Shown here in pieces: positions 1 through 54,542 of a DNA stretch of 64,000 bases (its first letter is position 1; each line of letters begins with the position of its first letter). The notes beneath the pieces were generated by a model, which saw nothing but the letters and a program-made list of their open reading frames with translations, made no database searches and was not told the DNA's origin. Source of the stretch: an uncultured Clostridium sp. (lineage in GTDB: Bacteria; Bacillota; Clostridia; TANB77; CAG-508); the NCBI GenBank assembly GCA_947570695.1, contig CANOVB010000002.1, positions 169,992 through 233,991 of the forward strand, read 5' to 3'. The translations under genes were made by a program, and so were the position numbers.

Positions 1-3000
1 TGTTTTTTCTACTGGTGTTGGTCCTACTGGTTTGTAGAATATCTTAATTACATTATTTCCAACATTTTCTGTTATTGTAAGTGGTGCATTTATTATTGTT
101 AATAATTCAAATCCTTCTTTTATTCCTGCATTTGCTTTTTCTTGTATTGTTTCTTTTGTTATTACTGTTCCAATTTCAACTTCTGCTAGTTCTGTTTTTG
201 TATTATCTATTTCATTATCATAATAGTATTCTATACTATAAGCTGCTTTTACTGGTTCATCTGGTTTTTGCTCTTTATAATATACTTTAATAACATTTGC
301 ATTTAAATTATCACCAACTTTTAGTGGTGTATTTAATGTTATAAAATGTTCAAAGTTTTCTTTTTTATTTTCTTCTACTTTTGATGCAATATCTGCATCT
401 GTAACTATTGTATTTTTGTCTACTTCTATATATTCTGATTTACCTATTTCATTATTATAGAAATATTCTATTCTATATCCTGTTTTTTCATTATTTGTTT
501 CATAATATACTTTAATTACTGTTCCATTTTCTACTGTATCTGGTATTTGGGCAGGATCTGTATTTTTAAATTTGAATGCTACATATTTATTTGTTAAATT
601 AATTTTTGATTTATCTACTGTTAATGTATCATCTTCTAATATTTGTACTGTTTTTCTTTCTACTTGTGTGTCTGATTCTTGTAGTAAATTATCTTTATAA
701 TATTCTACTGTATAACTTAATTCTTTTGTTTGTGCTTCATCTTTTACATAATGTACTTTTATAACTGTTTTATCTTCAACTACACTTGGAATAGTTGCAG
801 GTTCTGTTCTGTCAAATTTATATCCAAAATATTTATCATTTGATTGATCTACTGGTGCTACTTCTATTGTGTTTGGTTCTAACACTTGTACTGTTTTTGA
901 TCCTACATAAGTATCTGCTAAAACTTGTTCTCCATCTTTATAATATTCTACTGTATATGTTAAAGTTTTTACATTTTCGTCATCTATTATGTAATATACT
1001 TTTATTATATCTCCAGTATTTACTGTATCTGGTATATTACTTGGTTCTGTTTTATCAAATTTATATCCTTCATATTTGTTTGTTGTATTAATTTTTGATT
1101 TATCTACTGTTAATGTATCATTTTCTAATACTTGTACTGTTTTTCTTTCTACTTGTGTATCTTCTTCAACAATTTGTCCACCTCTATAGTATTGTACTGT
1201 ATAATTTAATTCTTTTGTTTGTTTATTATCTATTTGATAGTAAACATTAATTACATTTGATGATTCATTTTCACTTACTGTTATATTATTACTTTCTGAA
1301 TAAGCATATCCTTTTATTGTTATTACTTCATTTTGTCCTGTTATTTGTGTTCCATAAGGTACTATCTTTGTACTTGCTTCATGTAATTTTTTATTTGTAT
1401 TTTTCTCTAAATAATTTATTGTATATACATAATTATTAACTGTCCATTTTGCATATAATGTTGTATCTTGTGATGGTATATAGTTTCCGTTTGTATCTAT
1501 TCTATTTCCTGTACATTCACTATTTGTATACCATCCACCAAATGTATATCCTGTTCTTGTTGGTGTATAACTTACACTATTTTCACTCCAATTTGCATAT
1601 AATGTTACTTCTGATCCATTTTCTACTGCTAAATTTGTTACATTTGCTCTATCATTATATTCTTTATTTCCTGTAGCTGTTTTTGCCCAACCATTAAATG
1701 TATAATTTGCTGTTTCTACTTTATTTGTGCTTCCTTCATAATTATGATTGAATGTTACTGCATAACTTCTTGTAAATCCATTTGCTGTTAATGCTTTTTC
1801 TGTATCATAAGCATGTATACTTGATGCTGTGCTTCCACTTGTAGCACCATTTCCATCATAATTTACTGTATATGTATTTGCTATCCATTTTGCATATAAT
1901 GTTGTATCTTGTGATGGTGTATAATTTCCATTTGTATCTACTCTATTTCCTGTACATTCTCTATTTGTATACCATCCACCAAAACTATATCCTGTTCTTG
2001 TTGGATTACTACTTACTGAAGTACTTTCCCATTGTGCATATAATGTAACTGCTCCACTTGTTGCTAGGTTAGTTACTTTAGCTCCCCCTGCATAAGTATC
2101 TCCTGAAGCATTTGCTTTTGTATTCCAATTTAAAAATCTATATGTTGCTGTTTTTGTTTCATTTGTAGAACCTGTATAATTTTTATCAAATATTACGTTA
2201 TAACTTCTTGTAAATCCATTTTCTGTTAATGCTTTTTCTATATCGTAAGTATGTGTACTTGATGCTGTGTTTCCATTTGTAGCACCATTTCCGTCATAAT
2301 TTATTGTATATGTATTTGCTATCCATTTTGCATATAATGTTACATTTTGAGTTGGTAAATAATCTCCATTTGTATCTACTCTATTTCCTGAGCATGACTC
2401 ATTTGTAAACCATCCACCAAATGTATATCCTGTTCTTGTTGGTACATAGTTTACTTTTGATCCTGTATTATTCCATTTTGCATATAAATCTACTACTGCT
2501 CCATTTGCAGCTGATAAATTTATTACTGAAGCATTGTTATCATAAGCTTTTATTCCATCTATTGAATTTGCCCAGCCTATGAAATCATAATTACTTACTT
2601 TTGTAGTATTTGCACTACCAGTATAATTATGGTTATATGTTACTGTATAATTTCTACTAAAACTATTTGTACTTAAATTTTTAGATATTCCATAAGTATG
2701 TTCGCTATTTGACATTGTTCCTGTTGTAGCGCCATTTCCGTTATATCTTACTTGATATTTATTTGCTACCCATTTTGCATACAAAGTTACATTAGCAGTT
2801 GGTGTATATATTCCATTTGAGTCTACTCTACTTCCAGTGCAACCACTATTTGTATACCAACCTCCAAAAGAATATCCTGTTCTTGCTGTTGGTATATATG
2901 TTACACTATTTGAATTCCATTGAGCATATAAATTGACTATACCTTTATCTGTAGTAGTCAAGTTTGTAACAGATGCTTGATCACTATATGAATTTCCTGA

Positions 3001-3414
3001 AGCATTTGCCGCAGTATTCCAGTTTTTGAAAGAATAACTTACATCTTTATTTACAACACTACCATTAGTATAGTTATAATTATATGTTACTGTATAAGTT
3101 CTTTGGAATCCATTTGCAGTTAATTTCTGTGTACTATTAATTGTATGAAGGCTAGAAGCAGTGTTTCCACCCGTAGCCCCATTTCCATTATATACTACAG
3201 TATATGTTTTCTTTACTTCAGAACCGCTACCGCTTCCACTAGTTCCTGAACCGCTGCCAGAAGAGCCACTTGTAGTTGAACCACTAGCACTTATGCGGTT
3301 GCCTGAAAATGCCGATGTATATGTACTTTTTAAAGTAAGAGCTATTACAATAGCTACTACTATAATAACTATCGGTATAATTAATTTTAAAATGCTTTTT
3401 CCTTTCTTTTTCAT
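1..3414 (-). CDS. Giant InlB/MucBP-repeat surface adhesin, C-terminus beyond left edge
   Basis: The minus-strand frame stays open from the ATG at 3414 to base 1, giving 1138 visible codons. The N-terminus is a short basic start (MKKKGKS) followed by a hydrophobic signal/anchor segment (about residues 8-27) and a Ser/Gly-rich linker. Eight repeats of the Listeria-Bacteroides (InlB B / Flg_new) type follow to about residue 660, recognisable by GYTFGGWYTN and closing TLYAKW motifs. Then come four repeats of the YTVEYYKDG...VQVLEDDTLTV...IKVYYV type, and the first two or three YRIEYYYDN...NNVIKVYY repeats, which continue off the window. It is a clear paralogue of the 7963-residue protein at 17099-40990, with the same N-terminus and domain order. 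The likely role is adhesion or a surface layer, inferred from the repeat families. The start has a GGGAG ribosome site and lies 4 bp after a candidate short ORF. Confidence 0.9.
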   Translation of the reverse strand, partial: MKKKGKSILKLIIPIVIIVVAIVIALTLKSTYTSAFSGNRISASGSTTSGSSGSGSGTSGSGSGSEVKKTYTVVYNGNGATGGNTASSLHTINSTQKLTANGFQRTYTVTYNYNYTNGSVVNKDVSYSFKNWNTAANASGNSYSDQASVTNLTTTDKGIVNLYAQWNSNSVTYIPTARTGYSFGGWYTNSGCTGSRVDSNGIYTPTANVTLYAKWVANKYQVRYNGNGATTGTMSNSEHTYGISKNLSTNSFSRNYTVTYNHNYTGSANTTKVSNYDFIGWANSIDGIKAYDNNASVINLSAANGAVVDLYAKWNNTGSKVNYVPTRTGYTFGGWFTNESCSGNRVDTNGDYLPTQNVTLYAKWIANTYTINYDGNGATNGNTASSTHTYDIEKALTENGFTRSYNVIFDKNYTGSTNETKTATYRFLNWNTKANASGDTYAGGAKVTNLATSGAVTLYAQWESTSVSSNPTRTGYSFGGWYTNRECTGNRVDTNGNYTPSQDTTLYAKWIANTYTVNYDGNGATSGSTASSIHAYDTEKALTANGFTRSYAVTFNHNYEGSTNKVETANYTFNGWAKTATGNKEYNDRANVTNLAVENGSEVTLYANWSENSVSYTPTRTGYTFGGWYTNSECTGNRIDTNGNYIPSQDTTLYAKWTVNNYVYTINYLEKNTNKKLHEASTKIVPYGTQITGQNEVITIKGYAYSESNNITVSENESSNVINVYYQIDNKQTKELNYTVQYYRGGQIVEEDTQVERKTVQVLENDTLTVDKSKINTTNKYEGYKFDKTEPSNIPDTVNTGDIIKVYYIIDDENVKTLTYTVEYYKDGEQVLADTYVGSKTVQVLEPNTIEVAPVDQSNDKYFGYKFDRTEPATIPSVVEDKTVIKVHYVKDEAQTKELSYTVEYYKDNLLQESDTQVERKTVQILEDDTLTVDKSKINLTNKYVAFKFKNTDPAQIPDTVENGTVIKVYYETNNEKTGYRIEYFYNNEIGKSEYIEVDKNTIVTDADIASKVEENKKENFEHFITLNTPLKVGDNLNANVIKVYYKEQKPDEPVKAAYSIEYYYDNEIDNTKTELAEVEIGTVITKETIQEKANAGIKEGFELLTIINAPLTITENVGNNVIKIFYKPVGPTPVEKT

Positions 3415-6621: not shown

Positions 6622-7509
6622 TTATATATCTTTCATATTCATATATTTATTATATGCTACATATGATATTATAATTAATATTATTGCTGGTATTATTAAC
6701 ATTTTTGCACCTGTAGCAGGTAATTTCATACCAGCTACTGTGTTGTCTATTGTATTTTTGTTTGTATTTCTGTTTGTATTAGTATTTGTATTGTTTACTG
6801 TATTGTTTTTATTATTATTTTTGTCTTTATCCTTATCATTTTGTCCTTTATCTGGTGTTGGCGTTGGCTCTTTTGTTGGTGTTGGAGTAGGTGTTGGTGT
6901 AGGAGTAGGCGTTGGATTTGCTGCTGATACTTCTTTTACTGTTACATTGATACTTTTTGTAATTTCATCAGATGTTTTCATTGAATTTAAATCTTCTCCT
7001 GATGTTACTATAAATGCTGAATATGAAATTGCATCTCTAGCTTCTCCTAATGTTGCTGTTTGTTTTACTTTAAAGTTAATTGTTATTAAATCTGAATCTT
7101 GAGTTACACCATCTTTAAAATCAATTACAATTCTTGCATCATTATTTGTTGATGGATCTCCATTAAAACTTACATAATATGCACTATCTATAGTTCCATT
7201 TGTAATATCTTCTACTGGTAACACCTGTCCAGCTATTGTTACTTTATGATCTTCTGTTTGCTCTATATTTGCTGAACTTATTTTTTCAAAAATATCTTTA
7301 TTATAATTTACATATCCTTCAATACTTGTTACTTTTCTATTTTCAGGTATATCTTTTAAAGATAATTTTACTGAAATTGTATCTCCTTTTTGAACAGTAG
7401 TATTGCCTGTAGTAATATCTATTGTAGCATCTGAGGCTGCATATACTGTCCTAGAAAGAAGTACAAAAACAATAAATATTTGCAATAATATTAATTTATT
7501 TTTTCTCAT
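6622..7509 (-). CDS. Wall-anchored cohesin-domain protein (scaffoldin-like)
   Basis: The protein has 295 residues. A signal peptide (to about residue 25, cleavage near VYAAS) is followed by one beta-rich domain of about 170 residues that reads as a cohesin. Supporting segments are IDITTGNTTVQKGDTISVKL, a central VEGYVNYNKDIFE-like strand (here SIEGYVNYNKDIFEKI), ARIVIDFKDG, and LITINFKVKQTATLGE. Cohesins are the receptor modules that bind dockerins. Next come a (PT)n-rich linker, an Asn/Thr/Lys-rich spacer, and the sortase signal LPATG followed by a hydrophobic helix and a short charged tail, so the protein should be covalently attached to peptidoglycan. The start at 7509 has an AAGGAGC site. 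The gene upstream encodes a dockerin protein, an obvious candidate partner. The cohesin call rests on pattern reading; an unrelated Ig-like fold is the alternative. Confidence 0.75.
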   Translation of the reverse strand: MRKNKLILLQIFIVFVLLSRTVYAASDATIDITTGNTTVQKGDTISVKLSLKDIPENRKVTSIEGYVNYNKDIFEKISSANIEQTEDHKVTIAGQVLPVEDITNGTIDSAYYVSFNGDPSTNNDARIVIDFKDGVTQDSDLITINFKVKQTATLGEARDAISYSAFIVTSGEDLNSMKTSDEITKSINVTVKEVSAANPTPTPTPTPTPTPTKEPTPTPDKGQNDKDKDKNNNKNNTVNNTNTNTNRNTNKNTIDNTVAGMKLPATGAKMLIIPAIILIIISYVAYNKYMNMKDI

Positions 7510-7561
7510 TTTATCAAGCTCCTTATCTCATTATACATTATAAGGATATCATTTATGTTTT

Positions 7562-7623
7562 AAAAAAGCAATAGCTTTTTTTGGTATTTTTTATACCTCT
7601 TGGGCAAGCTTTACTTGCCCAAG
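7562..7623 (-). terminator. Double hairpin between dockerin and cohesin genes
   Basis: A 10-bp stem CTTGGGCAAG/CTTGCCCAAG (7599-7623) lies just after the dockerin gene. It is followed on minus by a second stem AAAAAAGC/GCTTTTTT (7562-7581) with a T tail. Together they should end the dockerin transcript, so the cohesin gene probably has its own promoter. Confidence 0.65.
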
Positions 7624-7634
7624 AATTATTTTTT

Positions 7635-10600
7635 CTATTTATAATTTAAGTTATATCCTTTAACTTCTGCTCTATGATATAGTAATAGTTTTGAGTCTAT
7701 TGAGTTTACAACTTTATCTGTATTTATATCAGCAGCTTCTAGTGCATCATTTACTAATTTTGAACCTTGTACATCATTTCTATGTGCTTTTATTAGTAAT
7801 GAATCTATTGAGTTTGCAAATCCATCACGATTTACATCTCCTGTTACTACTGTTTGATATACTAGTAAATCTCCGTTTTCATTTTTTGCAGTTTCTCCAT
7901 TTTTGTCTTGAATTTGAACATACATTCCTGTTGTCATATATCCTGTATTTATTGTTTGTTCATCTTTTTTAACTACTACTTCATAGTCTGCATTTTCTTT
8001 TATCATTATTTTCTTGAATTCAGATACTGGTGTTTTTGGCTTAATTCCAGTTACTAATTCATCTTTTGTTTCATATCCTAAATCTATTTTAGATGGTTCA
8101 TTTTGTGTTTTCTTTACTGTTATTGTTACATCTTTTTTCAATTCTGCATTTGCATTTGCCATTACTGTTACTTTCATGCTTTCAGCTGTTTCGTCAGCTG
8201 CCACTGTTAATAATCCTTCAGCAGATATATTTGTATTTGTACTCTTGCTTCCAGTTAATGCCCATGTTACTGTTTTATCTGCTACATTTCCCTCTACTGT
8301 TGCTGTAAATTGTTTTGTTTCTCCTGTTTTGACTTCAACATTTCCTGCTGGGCTTACTGTTAATTTTATTGTTTTATCCTCATCTGGTGGTGTAGTTGTT
8401 TTTATGATTTTTACATTTACTGATTTGCTTACTGTTTTATCTGCATTTGATGTTGCAATAACTGTAATATTATCAGCTGTTTCATTTGCCCCTACTGTTA
8501 ATCTTCCTATATTTGATACTTGTGTATTTGTACTTGTGTTTCCACTTACTTGCCATGTAACTGTCTTATCAGATACATTTCCTTCTACTGTTGCTGTAAA
8601 GTCTTTTGTATCTCCTGGTTTTACTTCAATATTCTCTGAAGGACTTATTGATACTGTTACTTTATTAGTTGGATCATCTGGATTAGCTGGCTCATCTCCT
8701 TTAATTACTGTTACTCTTACCTCGTCTTTTGCTGATGGATCACCATTTGATCTTGCAACTACTGTTACATATTCTGATGTTTCATTATCTCCTATTGTTA
8801 ATTTTCCTTCTGCTGTTATAACTGTTTTTGTACTACTATTATCTTTTACTTCCCATGTAACTGTTTTATCTTCTAAATCTGCTCCTTCTACTAAAGCTGT
8901 AAATACTTTTGATTCTCCTACTTTTACTTTAACATTTTCTGAAGGGCTAATTGTTACTCTACCACTTGTACTATCTGAAACTACATATTTTATTGTAGCT
9001 CTTGTTCCTTCACCAACACATGTTTCTACTGGTGTTCCGTCTCCACTCATAGCTAAAACAACAACTTTACCTTCTTTTGCTCCTGGTGTTCTTGTATTTA
9101 ATGTTACAAATGTTCCTTCTGATTCAACTCTTCCATTTTGACTTGTTTCGCCAAAAGCTGTTCTTGCTGCATCTATTGCTAATAATTGTGTAAATATTTT
9201 TGGTAATTCAACATTTACTGTTGTTGGATAATCTGATAAGTATATTGGTGCTGGTAATTCTAAGTCAATTCTTTGATTTTTTAAACTAATATTTATAGTA
9301 TCTTCTCTTGCCAAATAATTAGCATAATTTCCGCCTGTTATATGATCTAAGAATATTAATAAGCTTGTTATATCAGTAATTTGGTTTCCTGATAAATCTA
9401 ATTCTTTTAAATTTTTAAATACATTTAAGTATTGTTCTTCTGTTATTTCTAATTTTCCTGAAATTAAGTTGTTACTTAAGTTTAAGTATTTTAAGTTTGA
9501 CATATTTGTAAGATTACTTATATCAGATATATAGTTATATCCTAAACTTAATTTCTTTAAGTTTCTCATGCTTGCCCAATCTATGTTTGTAACATCTGCT
9601 ATATAATCATAATCTGCATAAATTTCTGCTAATTGTGTTAATTGTGTTATTCCATCTAATTTATCTAATTCTGCATTATATGAAATGTCTAATATTTTTA
9701 ATCTTGGTAATGTAACATATCTTGCTACATTTCCTTTTAATAATTTTGTTGCTAAAGACATCATTTGATCATATAAGAATAAGTTTTTAGTAGGACTAGT
9801 ATAACGTGTCAATTCTTTTTCTACATCTTCATGTATTTCTATTTCTTTAATTATATTTGCACTTGTTGTTAAGCCAATTTTACTTAAAATTGAATTTATT
9901 GCATCTACATTAGCTTCTTCAACATCTGCTGTTGCTAAACTTACTAATTCAGCTGTTGTATATAATATAGCTTTTTTAGATAATAATTCTACTTCTTGAT
10001 ATGAGCCTTTACAAGGATTTATTCCAATACTTCCCCCTGTAGTAGATACATAAGCTAGTCCTGTCTCTTGATAATCTCTATATACTTTGCATAATCCTGT
10101 AGGAATATTTTCACCTTTTATTTGTTCTAATATTTCTTTTTCGATATCTGCTGGTATATCATCATATCCAAATTCTTTTATTTTATTTTCTAAATATTCT
10201 ACTTCATAACATTGTCCTGTTGCTGTATCTTCATTCATTCTCTTAATTAAACAATAATTTGACATTTCTGAATAAATTGCAACTTTTCTTATTGTTTCTA
10301 ACATATTAAGAATTTGAACTCTATTTAATGCAGTATTTTCCATATATTCTTTAAAGAAATCTGCTAATGGTGTTTTAGTTTCTTCACTTTCAAAATTAAT
10401 ATAAAAAGCATTAGCTAATAATTTTTTATCTATTTGTGATAGTCCACCATTTGTTTCTAATTCTGTTAATTTGCTTATTTCAGCTGTTAATAATGCTTTT
10501 GCTCTTTCTGTTGTTGTATGTGTTGCATCATAATATGCTTTATATTCATCGTATGTTAAGTAGTTTAATTCATCTGTTAATAATGTAGTTAATCTATATT

Positions 10601-12440
10601 CTCTATTATAAATATTATATACTGCACTTAAATATGAATATACATTATCTATATCTTTTCTTGTTTTTTCTAATGCTTCATCTAATAATTGTAAAGATCC
10701 TTTTACTTCATTTCCTTCAGCATCTATATATCCATTTACTTCTTTTAAGATTTCTAATATTGAATTAACTTTGCTTGTAATTTCATCACCATAGTTTTCT
10801 GATTCTGGATCTAAAGTTGCTGCTGATTTTAATACATTAACTATTCTTGTTCCTGCTGATTTAATTTCTTCTATCTTACCTTCAGCATCTGTTTTATCTT
10901 TTTTCATTGTTTCAGATGCTTTTGATAAATTTCCATATTCTCTTGTATTTAACCAATAATTATATTTTTCTTGTAATTTTGTTTCTGCTTCTGCTTTATT
11001 TGTGTCTAAATTATATACTGGGTCTATACTGCTTAAATAGTTATGTGAAACATTTAAATGTGATGATAAACCTATGAATTTTTCAATTCCAGATAAATCT
11101 CTTATTTGTTGATTATTTAAAATTAAAGATTTAATTTTATTTATTAATACATTATTGTTTATAACAAAAGTTCTTGCATCATCATAAGCAGCTTCATATA
11201 AGTCTACTCCTATTCTATCTGTTACATAAGCTACCTTATAACCTGCTTTTGAAGTAATTGTTCCATCTTCTGCAACATCATGTAATGTTGTCTGCTCTAC
11301 AGATGTCCTTATTACTTTTCCAAATTTTGAACCATCATATTCATATAATGTATTTGTATTTAATGCTAATGCATATTCTATAACATTAGTTTCTCTATTT
11401 TTTAATATATGATATTGTATTCCGCTTATTGTTTGTGTTGTATATGAAAATTCTTCATATATTGTTTCTCCATTAATATCAACTGCATAAGGATAACTAA
11501 TTAATTCTGGATTAATTTTTTGTCCTGCTGTTAATTGAGCTTTTATAGCTTTATATAAATTTGTATCCATTGTTGTAATTGCTGTTTCTTCACTTGAGTG
11601 AACAACAAAATATAATTCAAATCTACTTCCTGTTAATATGTTTTCTGATGCTTTATTTGGATTATTTGCCTGATCTGCTTCTGTTTGATCATCATATATG
11701 TATATTTCAAGTTTTACTAATCCTCTATATGGAGCACCAAATTCATTTGCTACTCTTATTTGTACATTCTTATTTGTATTTGAAACATACATTGGCATGT
11801 CTTTTACAGATGGAGCAATATCACTTTCTGTTTGTGGTACTCTTAATTGTTTTTTCCAACATGCTTTGATATATCCCGCAAGTTCTAATATTTGTGGTAA
11901 TTCGAATTCAGCAATTTCTTCATTGTCTGATTCTTCTTCAACATTTACTGAAGTTGTATTAACAATAGTAACTGTTTGGCTACTTAATACTATTGTTCCC
12001 TTTTCTTTTAGGCTATTTATTAAAGAAGATATCTCACTAACATCATCTAGTCTGTTGGTAGATAAATCTAAATATGTTAATTCAGTTAAACTGTTTAACA
12101 CTTTTAGATTACTTGTCTTAGATAAATTGTTACCAGATAAATCTAAGTGAGTTAATCCTGTGAAGTTCTCTAAACCTGTAAGATCTGAAATTGAACCTTC
12201 GTTTAAGTCCAATCTTTTTACAGCAGATCTAGCACTTTCAGTCATAACCAAAGTGTGAGTAACGTCTATACCTTGATAAGCAATGCCTTGTTTTGTAAGG
12301 CTTTTCTTTATCGCAGTATATAAACTACTGTTAAGTTTAATCTCGTCACCCTCTGCTGCATTTACCACGAATAATGGTAACATGCAGTTCAATAGCATAA
12401 TTATAATTAATGCGATTGAGATTAACATTTTCCTTTTCAT
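7635..12440 (-). CDS. Secreted LRR and Ig-like protein with C-terminal dockerin
   Basis: The protein has 1601 residues. A signal peptide (MKRKMLISIALIIIMLLNC...) is followed by leucine-rich repeats at about 70-140 (LTHLDLSGNNLSK) and 430-480. A long, mostly helical middle part of about 400 residues follows, then a second clear LRR block at about 905-1035 (LKKLSLGYNYISDIS, LKELDLSGNQITDI). Three Big_2/Ig-like domains (about 1155-1445) share VSPxxNVEVKxGExKxFTA and DKTVTW. The last 68 residues are a dockerin with two calcium loops: DVNRDGFANSID has D, N, D, N, D at positions 1, 3, 5, 9 and 12, and DINTDKVVNSID repeats the pattern; both carry Ser-Ile at the specificity positions. It has no wall anchor of its own, so the dockerin should tether it to a cohesin such as that at 6622-7509. 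The start at 12440 was chosen over 12467 because of the GGGAGG site 7 bases upstream. No catalytic domain was recognised. Confidence 0.85.
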   Translation of the reverse strand: MKRKMLISIALIIIMLLNCMLPLFVVNAAEGDEIKLNSSLYTAIKKSLTKQGIAYQGIDVTHTLVMTESARSAVKRLDLNEGSISDLTGLENFTGLTHLDLSGNNLSKTSNLKVLNSLTELTYLDLSTNRLDDVSEISSLINSLKEKGTIVLSSQTVTIVNTTSVNVEEESDNEEIAEFELPQILELAGYIKACWKKQLRVPQTESDIAPSVKDMPMYVSNTNKNVQIRVANEFGAPYRGLVKLEIYIYDDQTEADQANNPNKASENILTGSRFELYFVVHSSEETAITTMDTNLYKAIKAQLTAGQKINPELISYPYAVDINGETIYEEFSYTTQTISGIQYHILKNRETNVIEYALALNTNTLYEYDGSKFGKVIRTSVEQTTLHDVAEDGTITSKAGYKVAYVTDRIGVDLYEAAYDDARTFVINNNVLINKIKSLILNNQQIRDLSGIEKFIGLSSHLNVSHNYLSSIDPVYNLDTNKAEAETKLQEKYNYWLNTREYGNLSKASETMKKDKTDAEGKIEEIKSAGTRIVNVLKSAATLDPESENYGDEITSKVNSILEILKEVNGYIDAEGNEVKGSLQLLDEALEKTRKDIDNVYSYLSAVYNIYNREYRLTTLLTDELNYLTYDEYKAYYDATHTTTERAKALLTAEISKLTELETNGGLSQIDKKLLANAFYINFESEETKTPLADFFKEYMENTALNRVQILNMLETIRKVAIYSEMSNYCLIKRMNEDTATGQCYEVEYLENKIKEFGYDDIPADIEKEILEQIKGENIPTGLCKVYRDYQETGLAYVSTTGGSIGINPCKGSYQEVELLSKKAILYTTAELVSLATADVEEANVDAINSILSKIGLTTSANIIKEIEIHEDVEKELTRYTSPTKNLFLYDQMMSLATKLLKGNVARYVTLPRLKILDISYNAELDKLDGITQLTQLAEIYADYDYIADVTNIDWASMRNLKKLSLGYNYISDISNLTNMSNLKYLNLSNNLISGKLEITEEQYLNVFKNLKELDLSGNQITDITSLLIFLDHITGGNYANYLAREDTINISLKNQRIDLELPAPIYLSDYPTTVNVELPKIFTQLLAIDAARTAFGETSQNGRVESEGTFVTLNTRTPGAKEGKVVVLAMSGDGTPVETCVGEGTRATIKYVVSDSTSGRVTISPSENVKVKVGESKVFTALVEGADLEDKTVTWEVKDNSSTKTVITAEGKLTIGDNETSEYVTVVARSNGDPSAKDEVRVTVIKGDEPANPDDPTNKVTVSISPSENIEVKPGDTKDFTATVEGNVSDKTVTWQVSGNTSTNTQVSNIGRLTVGANETADNITVIATSNADKTVSKSVNVKIIKTTTPPDEDKTIKLTVSPAGNVEVKTGETKQFTATVEGNVADKTVTWALTGSKSTNTNISAEGLLTVAADETAESMKVTVMANANAELKKDVTITVKKTQNEPSKIDLGYETKDELVTGIKPKTPVSEFKKIMIKENADYEVVVKKDEQTINTGYMTTGMYVQIQDKNGETAKNENGDLLVYQTVVTGDVNRDGFANSIDSLLIKAHRNDVQGSKLVNDALEAADINTDKVVNSIDSKLLLYHRAEVKGYNLNYK

Positions 12441-12474
12441 AATAAATCCTCCCTGAATATTTTTCATTAGTTCT

Positions 12475-49430: not shown

Positions 49431-49464
49431 AAAAACCGCTACTACTACATAGCCAGCGGTTTTT
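49431..49464 (+). terminator. Terminator of the activase gene
   Basis: The stem AAAACCGCT/AGCGGTTTT with a 14-base loop and T tail lies 10 bp past the stop. Confidence 0.85.
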
Positions 49465-52019
49465 ATTAATTTAAAATTTATATACTAAGACTTTTTACTC
49501 ATAAAATTTCTATATTTCTTCATCAAACATTTTCATTATATATTATCTCTACAATTCAAAAAAAGTGTCTTATTTTTCATTTTCAGGCTTTAACTTTTTT
49601 ACTTTTTTATTTATAAAATTTTATATCAGCTTCCTATCAAAATTCTTTATACTATTTCTTAATTAAACTATCTCTCTTGCTTTTAAAAAAATTTTTAATA
49701 AGATTTCAATTCATTTTTTATTTATAGTTTTCTGCCATCCTTATGGTATTAGTCCTTAATAATAGTATTTTTATAATATTCCTTTGTACTAACAACTTTT
49801 CATACTTAATTTTATATAAAATATATTTTTCTTTTTATTCTACTAATTTTTAATAATAATATTTTTAAACTCTCTTTCTCTTCTAATAGAAATTCTATAT
49901 ATAATATTTTTTCTTTTTGTAATAGAAATATTATTAATAATGTTTCTATAATATTTATTAATAATATAACATTATTTTTTATATTATTTTTTTAGAAATA
50001 AATCAAATTTGTAACTAAAACTAATTTACTTATTTTGTCTTAAAGCCTATTTTTTCATTAATCAATTTTTTTAATTATTTTACTAAAATTTAATTATCCA
50101 CAGGGCATTTTTTTTAATTTTCATTTTACTTTTAGTTTACTTAATATTACTTTTTTATTTTTTCACCTCTTGTTAATATATTCTTATTTTCCATTCTCTT
50201 CCCTAAGCAATTTTGTTTTTAAATGTTCTAAATTTTATTAAAAATGCAGTTTGTTAATTTGCCAACTCATTTTTTCACTATACTTTTTATTCATAAAATA
50301 AAAGCCAAATTTAATTTTAATTTTTTCAATTTTTTCGCATTATTTTTAAATTTTTAATAATTTCTTACTATAACATACTTTTATAGCAAAAATCGCTTAT
50401 CTTCGCTATTTAAAAGCATTTCGTAATTTTTTTCTTTTCCTTCATTTCACATAAAATTTTTTTTAATAAAAACTTTAAACATAAATAATAGTTTTTTTTA
50501 TAAAAACTTTACTTTTTTATATTTATTTAAGTATTTTTTTATAGAATATACTTTTAATATTTTCATTATTTATATATCTTTTTTAGTTTACTTAATACCT
50601 AATTTTAAAATGAAATTTATTTCTCAGTTTTAAACCAAAAATACGCTCTTATCTTTTGTTCCCATAGCTTATAAAGTATATATTATCAATTTAAAATTAT
50701 TCATACTAAACATTTGTCACATAGTCAATTCAAAACACTCCTTTTGCCTAATTCAAGTCGTCATTTAATTAAATTTTCAAAAAATTATATATAAGTTTAA
50801 ACTTAAATTCTTAAAATACCTCTTATAATATCTTAATATATACAAATATTAGTAATATACTTAATAAACATTCAAAATTCTCTATATATAAGCAATTTAA
50901 ATCTATTTTTATACAAAATATACTTCCAGTTTGTATTAATTAATTCATTCTTTTTTTAAATATTTTTTTGATTTCCATTTATTTAAATAAAATTAAATCA
51001 AAAAATGAATTCTTTTTTTTAATTAATAAAAATTAGAAGAGCAAAATTTGAAAAAAAATATCATTATTTTGTATAAAAAATAGTAAAAAAATATTAAGAA
51101 ATTTAAAGAAAAATTTTCATATAAAAAGTGACGTTTTTGTATAAATTTGAATATAAGTATTGGCAAAATAACAAAGTAGAAAAAAAAGAATAATATCATA
51201 AAAACAGTATCTTAAATACTAAGGGAAATAATGAAAAATATCAAAAATCCCTTTATTAAAATCAGTGGGAATAATTTATTAAAATTACTTATTAAGTAAA
51301 CTTATATTAAATATAAATATACATTCATTATTATATAAATAAAACCCTTTTAAAAGTCTTTTTAAAACATAAAAAAAGAGAAAACCTACACTATATTATA
51401 AAAAAAGTTTATGCACTATATTTTATAAAAAACATGCAAAAAAGCTTAAACTTGATATATCACGCTAATATACAGGCTTTTATAGATTTTAGCAAAAAAT
51501 AAGATTCATTCTCTAAAAAGACTTTTTATTAAAATTTTAATAAGTTGGATAGAAAATAAAAAAATAAAATATACTCAATTTTTAATTAATAGCTCATTTC
51601 GATTGCCAATTAAGCAATATTGTAATTTTTAGATAAATAAGCTCATATTGTAACAAATAGACTTAGGGAATACAGTAAAAATTCTATTTTGCATTTCTAA
51701 TAAAAAAGATTTAAAAAGTTGTTTTAAGTAAACTAAAATCTGATAATTAAAAACATAAATTCTACTTTTAAATTGAACTATTTATCATTATATTTATATA
51801 AAAAATTTTCAATCTAATCATATAATAAAACATTTTTATTTATAACAAAAAAATATATAAAAACACTTTTTTATAACCGCTTTTTGATAGTAATTTTAAA
51901 AAAATTTACTCCAAAAAAGTAATTTTTGATAAAAAATATAAAAAATTTTATTTTAAAACAATTTTTATAGACTAAATTTGTTTTTTCTTTTTATGTATTA
52001 TAAAAAAAATTTATAGAAT

Positions 52020-52570
52020 TTTTTAATAAGAAAAAATAAGAAAATCACAAAAATGTGTTAAACCAGTTAGTAAAATTCAAATAAAATGAATAAAAGCAGG
52101 CAGAAATCTAGTAGAAGCATTGGTATTTCTGACTTTCCTCAAAACGCAAGTCAAAAAATTATAGAAAATCTCATAAAAAGGATAAATAATTGTATAAATT
52201 TTCAAAAAATAGTAATAAATTTAGAAAAATTCAGTTGAAACACTTGATACCAGTAACTTACCTAAAAATGTAAGTCAAAAAATTATAGAAAACATCCAAA
52301 AAGTATGACATACTGATATAATTTTAACTAAAATAGTCCAATCTTTAACCAATTTTTTTCAAAAGCCTTGATATCAAAGTGATATATGAAAATTAAACTC
52401 AAGAAATTATAGAAAAAGCAAAAATTATATTAAATAGTTAGTTAAACTTTAGCAAAATTCTAAAAAATCAAAAAAATTTTCCTAAAATCTTTGGTACTCA
52501 TACAATTCCAGAAATAAAGCGTCAAAAAATTCAAGAAAATACCTTGAAAATTCTAAGTATTTTATCTTAT
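52020..52570. repeat. Degenerate tandem repeat, period about 124 bp
   Basis: The core (a/g)tcaaaaaattatagaaaa recurs at 52150, 52274, 52398 and 52521 (steps 124, 124, 123), with a weaker unit starting near 52026. About 30 bases before each core is a second conserved word, ttg(a/g)tat or ttggtac. Between cores another word of the type ttagtaaaattcaaataaaa recurs. The period is not a multiple of three. Units 1 and 2 keep a short stem with different bases (GACTT/AAGTC and ACTTAC/GTAAGT). Confidence 0.65.
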
Positions 52571-53068
52571 CTAAAGCTCTCTAATCAATAAGTTTCAACA
52601 TTTTTAGGAGATGTATTGATTTAAATAATATATTTTAATAATAAATAAAAATATAATTAAATAAATTATTGCAAATTTTGTAGAAATCATAGCAAAAATT
52701 TGTAAAAAATATAAAAAAAGACTAAATTTACTTCAAATAATCTACAGGTTCTTTTAGTACTTTTTAAAAATGTTATCTTTTAAAAAATACTAGAAAAAAT
52801 AATTTTTTTATAAAAAATATTTTATTCAAATTTTACAATTAGACAACAACAAATTCAAAGTTATAAAATCGAATATTAAGATAAGAAATACTCCTAGGAA
52901 AATAGCAAAATTGATATATATTATAGCTAAAAAATAATGGCTTTTTTTGCTATAAAAATAAACTTTAAGTAAACTACTTTTGCGTTGTTAATATTATAAA
53001 ATTTTATTAAAAAAATTTAAAAATTTATACGAAAAAAGTACATTTTTAACAAAAATTCTATAAAAAAA

Positions 53069-53084
53069 TGTTTCACGAAAAACA
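53069..53084. promoter_or_regulatory. parS-like site
   Basis: TGTTTCACGAAAAACA differs at 2 of 16 positions from the broadly conserved parS TGTTTCACGTGAAACA. It is the candidate ParB site furthest from parAB here, 3.4 kb from parB. Confidence 0.5.
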
Positions 53085-54542
53085 ATTTAAATTAATAATT
53101 TTTTTATAAAAAACACTAAATCACAAAACTCACTACTTTCAAGCTTTTTAAAAGAATGAGCTTTTTAAAAAAATACTGTAAAACTCAGAAAAAAAAAGAA
53201 AATCTTGAATAGTAATTTAAAAATTTAATAAGTGATAAAAGTTTTAATTGTCAGTAAAGCAAACCTATATAACAAGAAAACAATTAACAAAAGATATCTC
53301 TAGAACATATGGGATTAATGCAATTAGCAAAAAATGTATCAACTATAAGCTTAGCATTTTTTGCCTATTTAGGTAAACCAATTACTCTACATATTCTTTA
53401 GGAAAAACTATAAATTTTAAAGATAAATTGTTTTAAAAAAATTTAAAAATTATATTAATTTTTCTTCAACATTTTGCACTATATAAATATAACTACATAT
53501 GCATAAATTAGATGGCCCCCAAAAATAACAAAACGTTAATTCAAAAAAACCTGAAATCAAGTAATAGCAAGGAAATCTAATATATAACAATGACTACAAC
53601 AATATTAAAATATCTATAATAATATAAAATATTTAGTAGAAATTTAATTATTTCTTCTATTTTTAATTGTATTTTAACTTTTAATTATCGAATTTTTTAT
53701 TTATTCTTTAATTTAATTTTTTATTATTTAATTTTAATTATAAATTTACTCTTCTATTTTAATAAATCTATACTAAATTTTTATATAAAATTTTAGCAAT
53801 TTTAAATCTATGTATTTCGCTGTTTTCTAACGCTATATAATTTTTTTCTTAACTCTATTTTTAATATTTTCTTGTAGAAAAAGAATATTTTTCTCATATT
53901 TTCTTAAATTCTACATAAAAATTTTTAATCTTTTTTAGTATTTTAACATCATTTTTTTATAAGAATATATTTTTTTATAAAAAATTAGTAAAAAAAATTA
54001 ATTTTTATTTTTTAATTTTTAACTGGATATATTTTTTTACTTTGTTTTTTTCAAACAAAAACTTTTTTTACTTAAAAATTTTTTAAATTACTTTTTGTTT
54101 TATAGTTTACTTAACAAGTTGTTTTTAAAAGTTATTTTGGTTTTAGTATAAAAATAATTATATATATTTTTTCTTTTTATTCCCTAACTAATTTTCTTAT
54201 TTAATTTAATAAAAAATTTCTTATTTTTCATTTTTTCTTATGTTGTTTTTTTGTCAATATTTAATTTCATTTTATAAAATAGTTATCAAAATTTAATATT
54301 TATTTTTCTTTTATTTTTTATATTTTGAGAATAAAAATTCTTTATTCTTTAAATATTAATAACTTTTTTTCTAAACTATAACCATCTATATTTTAAATGG
54401 CTACTCAAATCCTTGGTATTTCAAGGAGTCTGCGCTTCTTGGCTTTAAAATGAAAAATAAGGCTTTTAAATTTTTTTCTAAGGTATTTTACTTATTATAT
54501 AAATCTATTTCCTATATAAAGCAATACATTTAAAATAAATAT

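Follow-up and report, generated by a model that had tools for sequence, protein, structure and literature searches.

The window analysed here is a stretch of 64,000 nucleotides from an uncultured, low-GC Clostridium sp. (assembly GCA_947570695.1, contig CANOVB010000002.1, positions 169,992 to 233,991). It contains two adjacent genes on the minus strand, one for a small protein with a single cohesin and a wall-sorting signal and the other, the cargo gene, for a large protein with leucine-rich repeats (LRR) and immunoglobulin-like (Ig-like) stretches that ends in a dockerin. The pair is probably a dedicated two-protein surface display unit consisting of a wall-anchored socket and an LRR cargo, a reading to which we give a probability of about 0.72. 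The features concerned are as follows.

6622..7509, minus strand: predicted wall-anchored single-cohesin protein, 295 residues (open reading frame, PF00963 and PDB profile matches)
6709-6723, minus strand: LPATG sorting signal of the cohesin protein, after which come a hydrophobic segment and a short tail with Lys
7510..7634, minus strand: intergenic gap of 125 bases; the cohesin gene lies downstream of the cargo gene and a promoter-like site precedes it
7598-7624: 11-bp inverted repeat in the gap, read from the sequence of the gap
7635..12440, minus strand: cargo protein, 1601 residues (open reading frame, start chosen by GGAGG; LRR_4, I-set, PF00404)
7638..7841, minus strand: C-terminal dockerin module (residues 1534-1601 of the cargo), which begins with GDVNRDG, reaches the end of the protein and has two calcium-loop/helix repeats

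The cohesin protein begins with a signal-peptide-like segment and continues through the cohesin (about residues 25-195) and a linker, first TP-rich and then Asn-rich, to the C-terminal sorting signal. Pfam placed PF00963 at residues 33-189 of 295 with 37.7 bits (cut-off 24.1, E-value 2.9e-9). The single sequence gave a weak match to a solved cellulosome-anchoring protein in the PDB (E-value 0.0039). A profile of 30 orthologous cohesin domains, with matches counted up to an E-value of 1, found 10 PDB sequences, four of them at 0.0022 or better and the best at 2e-5. Eight of the ten are named scaffoldin, cellulosome-anchoring or cohesin; the remaining two are named endoglucanase and their entries also hold a dockerin chain. 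The best of these alignments span only about the first 60 positions of the profile, and by their shortness the cohesin of the window appears to be a divergent member of its family. The signal-like start, LPXTG-like motif, hydrophobic stretch and tail are together those of a predicted sortase substrate. The motif [LI]P.[TA]G ends all 30 untruncated cohesin proteins counted, and nine sortase matches, one with an internal stop, were found in the own genome.

The cargo protein also has a signal-peptide-like start, followed by LRR blocks, three Ig-like stretches, a pre-dockerin module and the C-terminal dockerin. The longest possible frame is 1610 residues and starts at 12467, nine residues upstream of 12440, but GGAGG stands immediately before the ATG at 12440 and the length of 1601 residues is therefore preferred; Pfam residue numbers of the cargo run from the longer start. 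Pfam scores were 81.6 bits for LRR_4, 38.7 for I-set over three stretches and 37.4 for the type I dockerin PF00404 (cut-off 22.9, E-value 2.9e-9). The LRR part matches internalin and other LRR structures, and the internalin and NEAT-LRR models of NCBIfam reached 36-47 bits, below their cut-offs of 1050-1600. No sorting signal is present in the cargo sequence and the Pfam scan found no catalytic domain in it. A profile of 30 orthologous dockerins gave 27 PDB matches at an E-value of 0.001 or better (best 7.6e-14), and all 30 aligned dockerins retain D1 and D12 in both calcium loops. LRR families were found in all seven other cargo proteins of this type scanned with Pfam, that of the diverged locus L109 included. 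Thus the sequence-only reading, made before these searches, had located both proteins and their modules correctly, including the length of 1601 residues, the cohesin-like domain with LPATG and a two-loop dockerin at the end of a protein with no wall anchor.

Searching 96 genomes (the own genome and relatives) with the cohesin protein gave matches in 59, many of them through the tail or to other cohesins only. The locus set comprises the window and the 32 further loci with this type of cohesin (L065-L096), 33 in all; in two of them a contig end truncates the cohesin gene. In 32/33 loci the cohesin gene has a complete dockerin gene next to it on the same strand, with 50-342 bases between the two; at L074 the dockerin gene is split into two frames, which match one relative's protein in succession. 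Profiles of the two modules, built from alignments of 30 rows each that leave out L079, L080 and L088, were run over 53 genomes of the genus. The cohesin profile gave 33 matches of at least 159.9 bits, one per genome, the next being 87, and the dockerin profile 36 matches of at least 92 bits, the next being 53. The 30 rows of each profile, the window sequence among them, recur among its own top matches by construction. Cohesins from outside the profile still score high (215 bits in genome G031, 190 in G046 and 181 in G048), and the dockerins from outside it, two each in G001 and G013, score 92-99 bits. Both modules are present in 32 of the 53 genomes, the cohesin only in one (G048), the dockerin only in one (G001) and neither in 19 (Fisher p 3.3e-12, uncorrected for kinship). 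One genome scored as having neither, G015, does have a pair in this position, though a diverged one (L109; cohesin 87 bits, dockerin 46). Beyond the genus no match appeared: at an E-value of 1e-15 the cohesin profile matched 7 of 238 genomes of the order, all from the own genus, which contributes 10 of the 238.

Both markers, tatD and lemA, were found beside the pair at 28 loci, the window included, and in all 28 the pair sits between the two; in five of these loci an additional frame, short or of another kind, is present as well. Of the 19 genomes with neither module 13 were examined, 12 around tatD plus G015. Eleven of the 12 have both markers, with neither pair gene between them (11/11); in nine of these, tatD and lemA are separated by 34-282 bases with no frame of 70 residues, and in two (L117, L120) the gap holds other frames, which gave no match with the in-house profiles of cohesin and dockerin. 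At the twelfth, L124, lemA was not found around tatD. Since the checked gaps lack both genes, the pair has been lost or gained as a block. On a tree of the two markers, read without considering support values, the absences are found at two points: ten cluster in one group, and L113 stands apart. A genomic island had also been proposed for the pair and is rejected: tatD and lemA flank it and are direct neighbours in genomes that lack it.

Distances between the two modules were compared at 28 loci, with the markers found by phmmer; L080, whose cohesin is truncated at a contig end, was omitted here and in an earlier run with fewer loci. The correlation of dockerin with cohesin distances is 0.60. 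The partial correlation given tatD and lemA is 0.38 (p 0.006, n=28), and within subtype A of the dockerin, defined below, it is 0.60 (p 0.0002, n=23); an earlier run with 12 subtype-A loci gave 0.35, with 34/4,999 permutations at least as high. In the controls, tatD and cohesin given lemA correlate at 0.06 (p 0.28) and tatD and dockerin given lemA at 0.15 (p 0.059). The correlated divergence gives moderate support at most for the pairing of the modules.

The dockerin could also bind another cohesin, for example one of the chains that carry both modules, with the neighbouring cohesin doing something else and the adjacency reflecting the common descent of a surface-protein locus. The genome does have such chains (L025, L027, L028 and L030 by Pfam, and L026, whose cohesin is matched only by an in-house model that L026 helped to seed), and the distance correlation is partly common to the linked lemA. 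However, the joint absence of the two genes and their type-specific pairing are hard to fit to this explanation, and by eye the helix sequence of the chain dockerins differs from that of the window; we consider it quite unlikely. The display unit remains preferred here.

Pfam found PF00404 at nine places in the own genome and PF00963 at eight. The dockerin of the window scores 117 bits with its profile against at most 45.6 for the other dockerins, which are of different types, and the cohesin scores 193 against at most 33.8 for the other cohesins. The window cohesin and dockerin are thus, by these profiles, each the sole member of their type found in the genome. The sequence-only reading had named a non-cohesin fold, or another scaffoldin better suited to this dockerin, as evidence that would count against docking: the domain matches cohesin, and the genome has no other cohesin of this type. 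Another possibility is that the cohesin is a wall socket of general use that takes many clients in the manner of a cellulosome, the LRR neighbour being only one of them. Anchored cohesins serving several dockerins are known, ScaE of Ruminococcus flavefaciens (passages of PMC5301203) and, by prediction, cSca5 of Limousia (passages of PMC12997984). Genome G013 combines a single cohesin with three dockerins of this type, the extra dockerins on a Big_3 protein and a short frame, and the two dockerins of G001 sit on DUF4832/DUF4874 and GDSL-lipase proteins; the socket may therefore take several clients in some species. Against a general socket, 31 of the 33 genomes that have the dockerin type carry a single copy of it, encoded next to the cohesin gene, and the other dockerins of the own genome differ in type. 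A socket for many clients is unlikely.

The arrangement recurs with other types. Four loci with an anchored cohesin were found in the own genome (the window, L027, L031 and L032) and all four adjoin a dockerin gene; the chance of this is about 8e-9, assuming 1,900 genes and nine dockerin genes, so the adjacency is beyond chance. In relatives the same plan is seen at L099 and L101-L104. At L031 (5633-9961) two different cohesins flank one dockerin gene, one ending in LPKTG and the other in a membrane-like end only; by eye L110 of genome G048 has a similar layout, plus a small secreted-looking frame. The anchored cohesin of L032 is missed by PF00963 and matches the window cohesin at an E-value of 4.4e-7, and its cargo is, by Pfam, a papain-like peptidase with Lectin_like. 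Pfam scans of the other dockerin proteins gave NPCBM and F5/8 type C for L026 and L028, Ig for L027, Big_2 for L031, cohesin and dockerin for L030, and dockerin only for L025 and L029. By eye only, L031 and L029 resemble peptidoglycan hydrolases. Also by eye, L026, L027, L028 and L030 each have a C-terminal cohesin, a middle module and a dockerin, with a similar dockerin helix; such chains could link head to tail from the anchored cohesin beside the chain of L027.

Markers of a cellulosome or mucinolysome were looked for in the same genome. The eight PF00963 matches lie in eight separate frames, so none is a multi-cohesin scaffoldin, though a divergent scaffoldin might escape this profile, as the L032 cohesin does. 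None of the nine dockerin proteins carries a glycoside hydrolase domain by Pfam (L026 being cut by a contig start), and GH9 and CBM3 gave no match, these being the two families searched genome-wide. Membership of a cellulosome or mucinolysome is rejected, since the markers tested, namely multi-cohesin frames, glycoside hydrolases on dockerin proteins, GH9 and CBM3, were not found. The claim of a non-enzymatic system holds for the cargo of the window; it does not extend to the system as a whole, which includes the papain-like peptidase of L032 and the GDSL-lipase/DUF4832 protein of G001.

The 30 aligned dockerins comprise 24 of a subtype A and six of a subtype B, those of L086, L089 and L092-L095. 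In subtype B repeat 1 loses its pattern and repeat 2 reads [KQR]YRAD, against YHRA[EK] in subtype A. Repeat 2 of subtype A has H19, R20 and A21 in 24/24 and Y18 in 23/24, and repeat 1 has K17 in 24/24 and R20 in 22/24. Subtype A looks two-fold symmetric and subtype B does not, and this symmetry resembles that of some dockerins for which dual-orientation binding is described (passages of PMC5301203). Recognition had earlier been placed at a Ser-Ile pair, positions 10-11, but conservation there is low in subtype A: Ser10 occurs in 12/24 of repeat 1 and in 1/24 of repeat 2, the single case being the window's own, and Ile11 in 3/24 and 5/24, respectively (in subtype B, repeat 2 has Ser10 in 5/6). 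In subtype A positions 17-23 are far better conserved than these, and by conservation we predict the cohesin contact at 17-23; the Ser-Ile site is not supported. The helix bears too on the explanation that neither module docks, the beta domain and the calcium domain serving simply for folding or adhesion. Dockerins with no known partner do occur. The divergence of the cohesin, with PDB alignments of about 60 positions, would allow this, and most R. flavefaciens LRR-protein dockerins bound no tested cohesin on a microarray, while several LRR-Doc rows were positive by one method or another (both in passages of PMC5301203). With repeat 2 positions 19-21 invariant in all 24 subtype-A dockerins and the pair lost jointly, an absence of docking is very improbable.

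A number of observations weigh against the dedicated display unit. The fourth place of the sorting motif is Ala instead of Thr in 10/30 untruncated cohesin proteins. Locus L088 in genome G048 keeps a whole cohesin gene beside a dockerin remnant of 242 residues, which still ends in a dockerin helix, and G001, a genome that is 72% complete, carries its two dockerins of this type with no such cohesin. The Fisher p ignores kinship, and the checked absences occupy just two places on the tree. In the distance comparison lemA itself correlates with cohesin given tatD at 0.34 (p 0.018) and with dockerin given tatD at 0.70 (p 0.0002), so that linkage or shared descent accounts for part of the correlation between dockerin and cohesin; an earlier run of 15 loci was weaker (0.23), with 738/9,999 permutations at least as high, and was not significant. 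Finally, among eight loci examined for other cohesins (L097-L104), L097, L098 and L100 have no adjoining dockerin gene.

Taken with these reservations, the display unit may be pictured in four steps. Both proteins would be secreted, as their signal-like starts suggest. Sortase would then link the cohesin protein to the wall, as the LPATG and the sortase genes suggest, leaving a single cohesin exposed as a socket on its flexible linker. This cohesin would be bound by the dockerin of the LRR/Ig-like protein in its calcium-folded form, a proposal that the adjacency of the genes, their joint loss and their correlated divergence support, and the contact would be made mainly by the conserved helix residues 17-23 of the repeats, those of the second repeat above all. 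The other pairs of the genome have dockerins of other types, so every cargo is expected to pair with its own socket. The LRR part might then face outward and recognise a partner, for example host, mucus or neighbour-cell material; a function in adhesion or recognition is suggested by the LRR and Ig-like modules. Of the earlier proposal of a docking pair outside the cellulosome, the docking pair itself is strengthened, behaving as a unit through most of the genus, with no tested cellulosome marker found in the own genome; the Ser-Ile site is not supported and the island is rejected.

The gap between the two genes holds the 11-bp inverted repeat, and stems of at least 9 bp, varying in sequence, occur in 19/32 orthologous gaps against a mean of 0.02 in 60 mononucleotide shuffles. 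A simple terminator between the genes is rejected as the scan marks the stem-loop as terminator-like on the opposite strand only; that it acts in transcript balance is a guess. Promoter-like sites in the scan are not above chance (34 found against 44.5 expected).

Elsewhere in the window the two giant adhesins said to share the island correspond to two giant repeat frames, which are present, the conserved place between tatD and lemA speaking against the island itself. One, at 17099-40990, is a single frame of 7963 residues with List-Bact repeats and 18 MucBP stretches. The other, at 1-3414, encodes another repeat protein, 1138 residues long or more, that runs off the window and whose kind was read by eye. 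At 49450-54400, about 5 kb of 17-19% GC with no frame of 100 residues lies beside two tRNA-Ser genes; the AT skew changes sign inside it, its short tandem repeats are weak, and besides the tRNAs Rfam gave no match there.

Internalins carry LRR, Ig-like repeats and a wall anchor on one chain. The window pair is like them in that LRR and Ig-like repeats would be displayed at a Gram-positive wall, and unlike them in that anchor and LRR are split over two proteins with presumed docking, the internalin models remaining below their cut-offs. Non-cellulosomal cohesins as such were reportedly treated by Peer et al. in 2009.

The closest likeness is to R. flavefaciens FD-1, as described in passages of PMC5301203 and PMC2930009. 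Its ScaE is a single wall-anchored cohesin with LPXTG, CttA is a non-enzymatic CBM-CBM-X-Doc protein that docks on ScaE for adhesion, and a table counts 28 LRR modules in dockerin proteins; an LRR-Doc protein, ZP_06144651, also scored positive on ScaE and ScaH (PMC5301203). A wall-anchored single cohesin with non-enzymatic or LRR cargo would be common to both, but ScaE anchors a cellulosome and binds several dockerins, whereas the window socket adjoins one cargo of its own type and no sign of a cellulosome was found. In the Limousia mucinolysome, also of a gut bacterium, cSca5 is likewise an LPxTG-anchored cohesin protein and dockerins occur also on peptidases; its multi-cohesin scaffoldins and many dockerin-bearing glycoside hydrolases have no counterpart seen in the window genome (passages of PMC12997984). 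The same passages give Clostridium perfringens glycosidases as a case of cohesin and dockerin outside cellulose digestion with one cohesin per protein, but there the cohesins sit on glycoside hydrolases, whereas that of the window sits on a wall anchor and its cargo has no such domain. In view of ScaE with CttA and the LRR-Doc protein, and of cSca5, the parts and the principle were already known. What differs is a private two-gene unit kept in a genus without cellulosome signs found. No description of a wall-anchored cohesin and an LRR-dockerin protein as a dedicated pair of neighbours was found in one open-access library, covered mostly at the level of listings.

Many dockerins sit on proteins without an evident tie to polysaccharide breakdown; with a conserved pair whose likely partner is the neighbouring gene, the purpose of such dockerins becomes directly testable. 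As a tentative extension, the genus may use cohesin-dockerin chemistry as a general set of private surface locks without a cellulosome. Each genome would then have several mutually orthogonal wall sockets beside their own cargoes (an adhesin-like LRR protein, a papain-like peptidase and, judged by eye, proteins resembling peptidoglycan hydrolases), together with cohesin-X-dockerin chains on large NPCBM/F5-8-type and other proteins, possibly extending outward from an anchored cohesin. If the binding holds, the genus, in which no cellulosome sign was found, would be an example of one-to-one docking for the display of a protein that has no known enzyme domain, and new orthogonal cohesin-dockerin pairs would become available.

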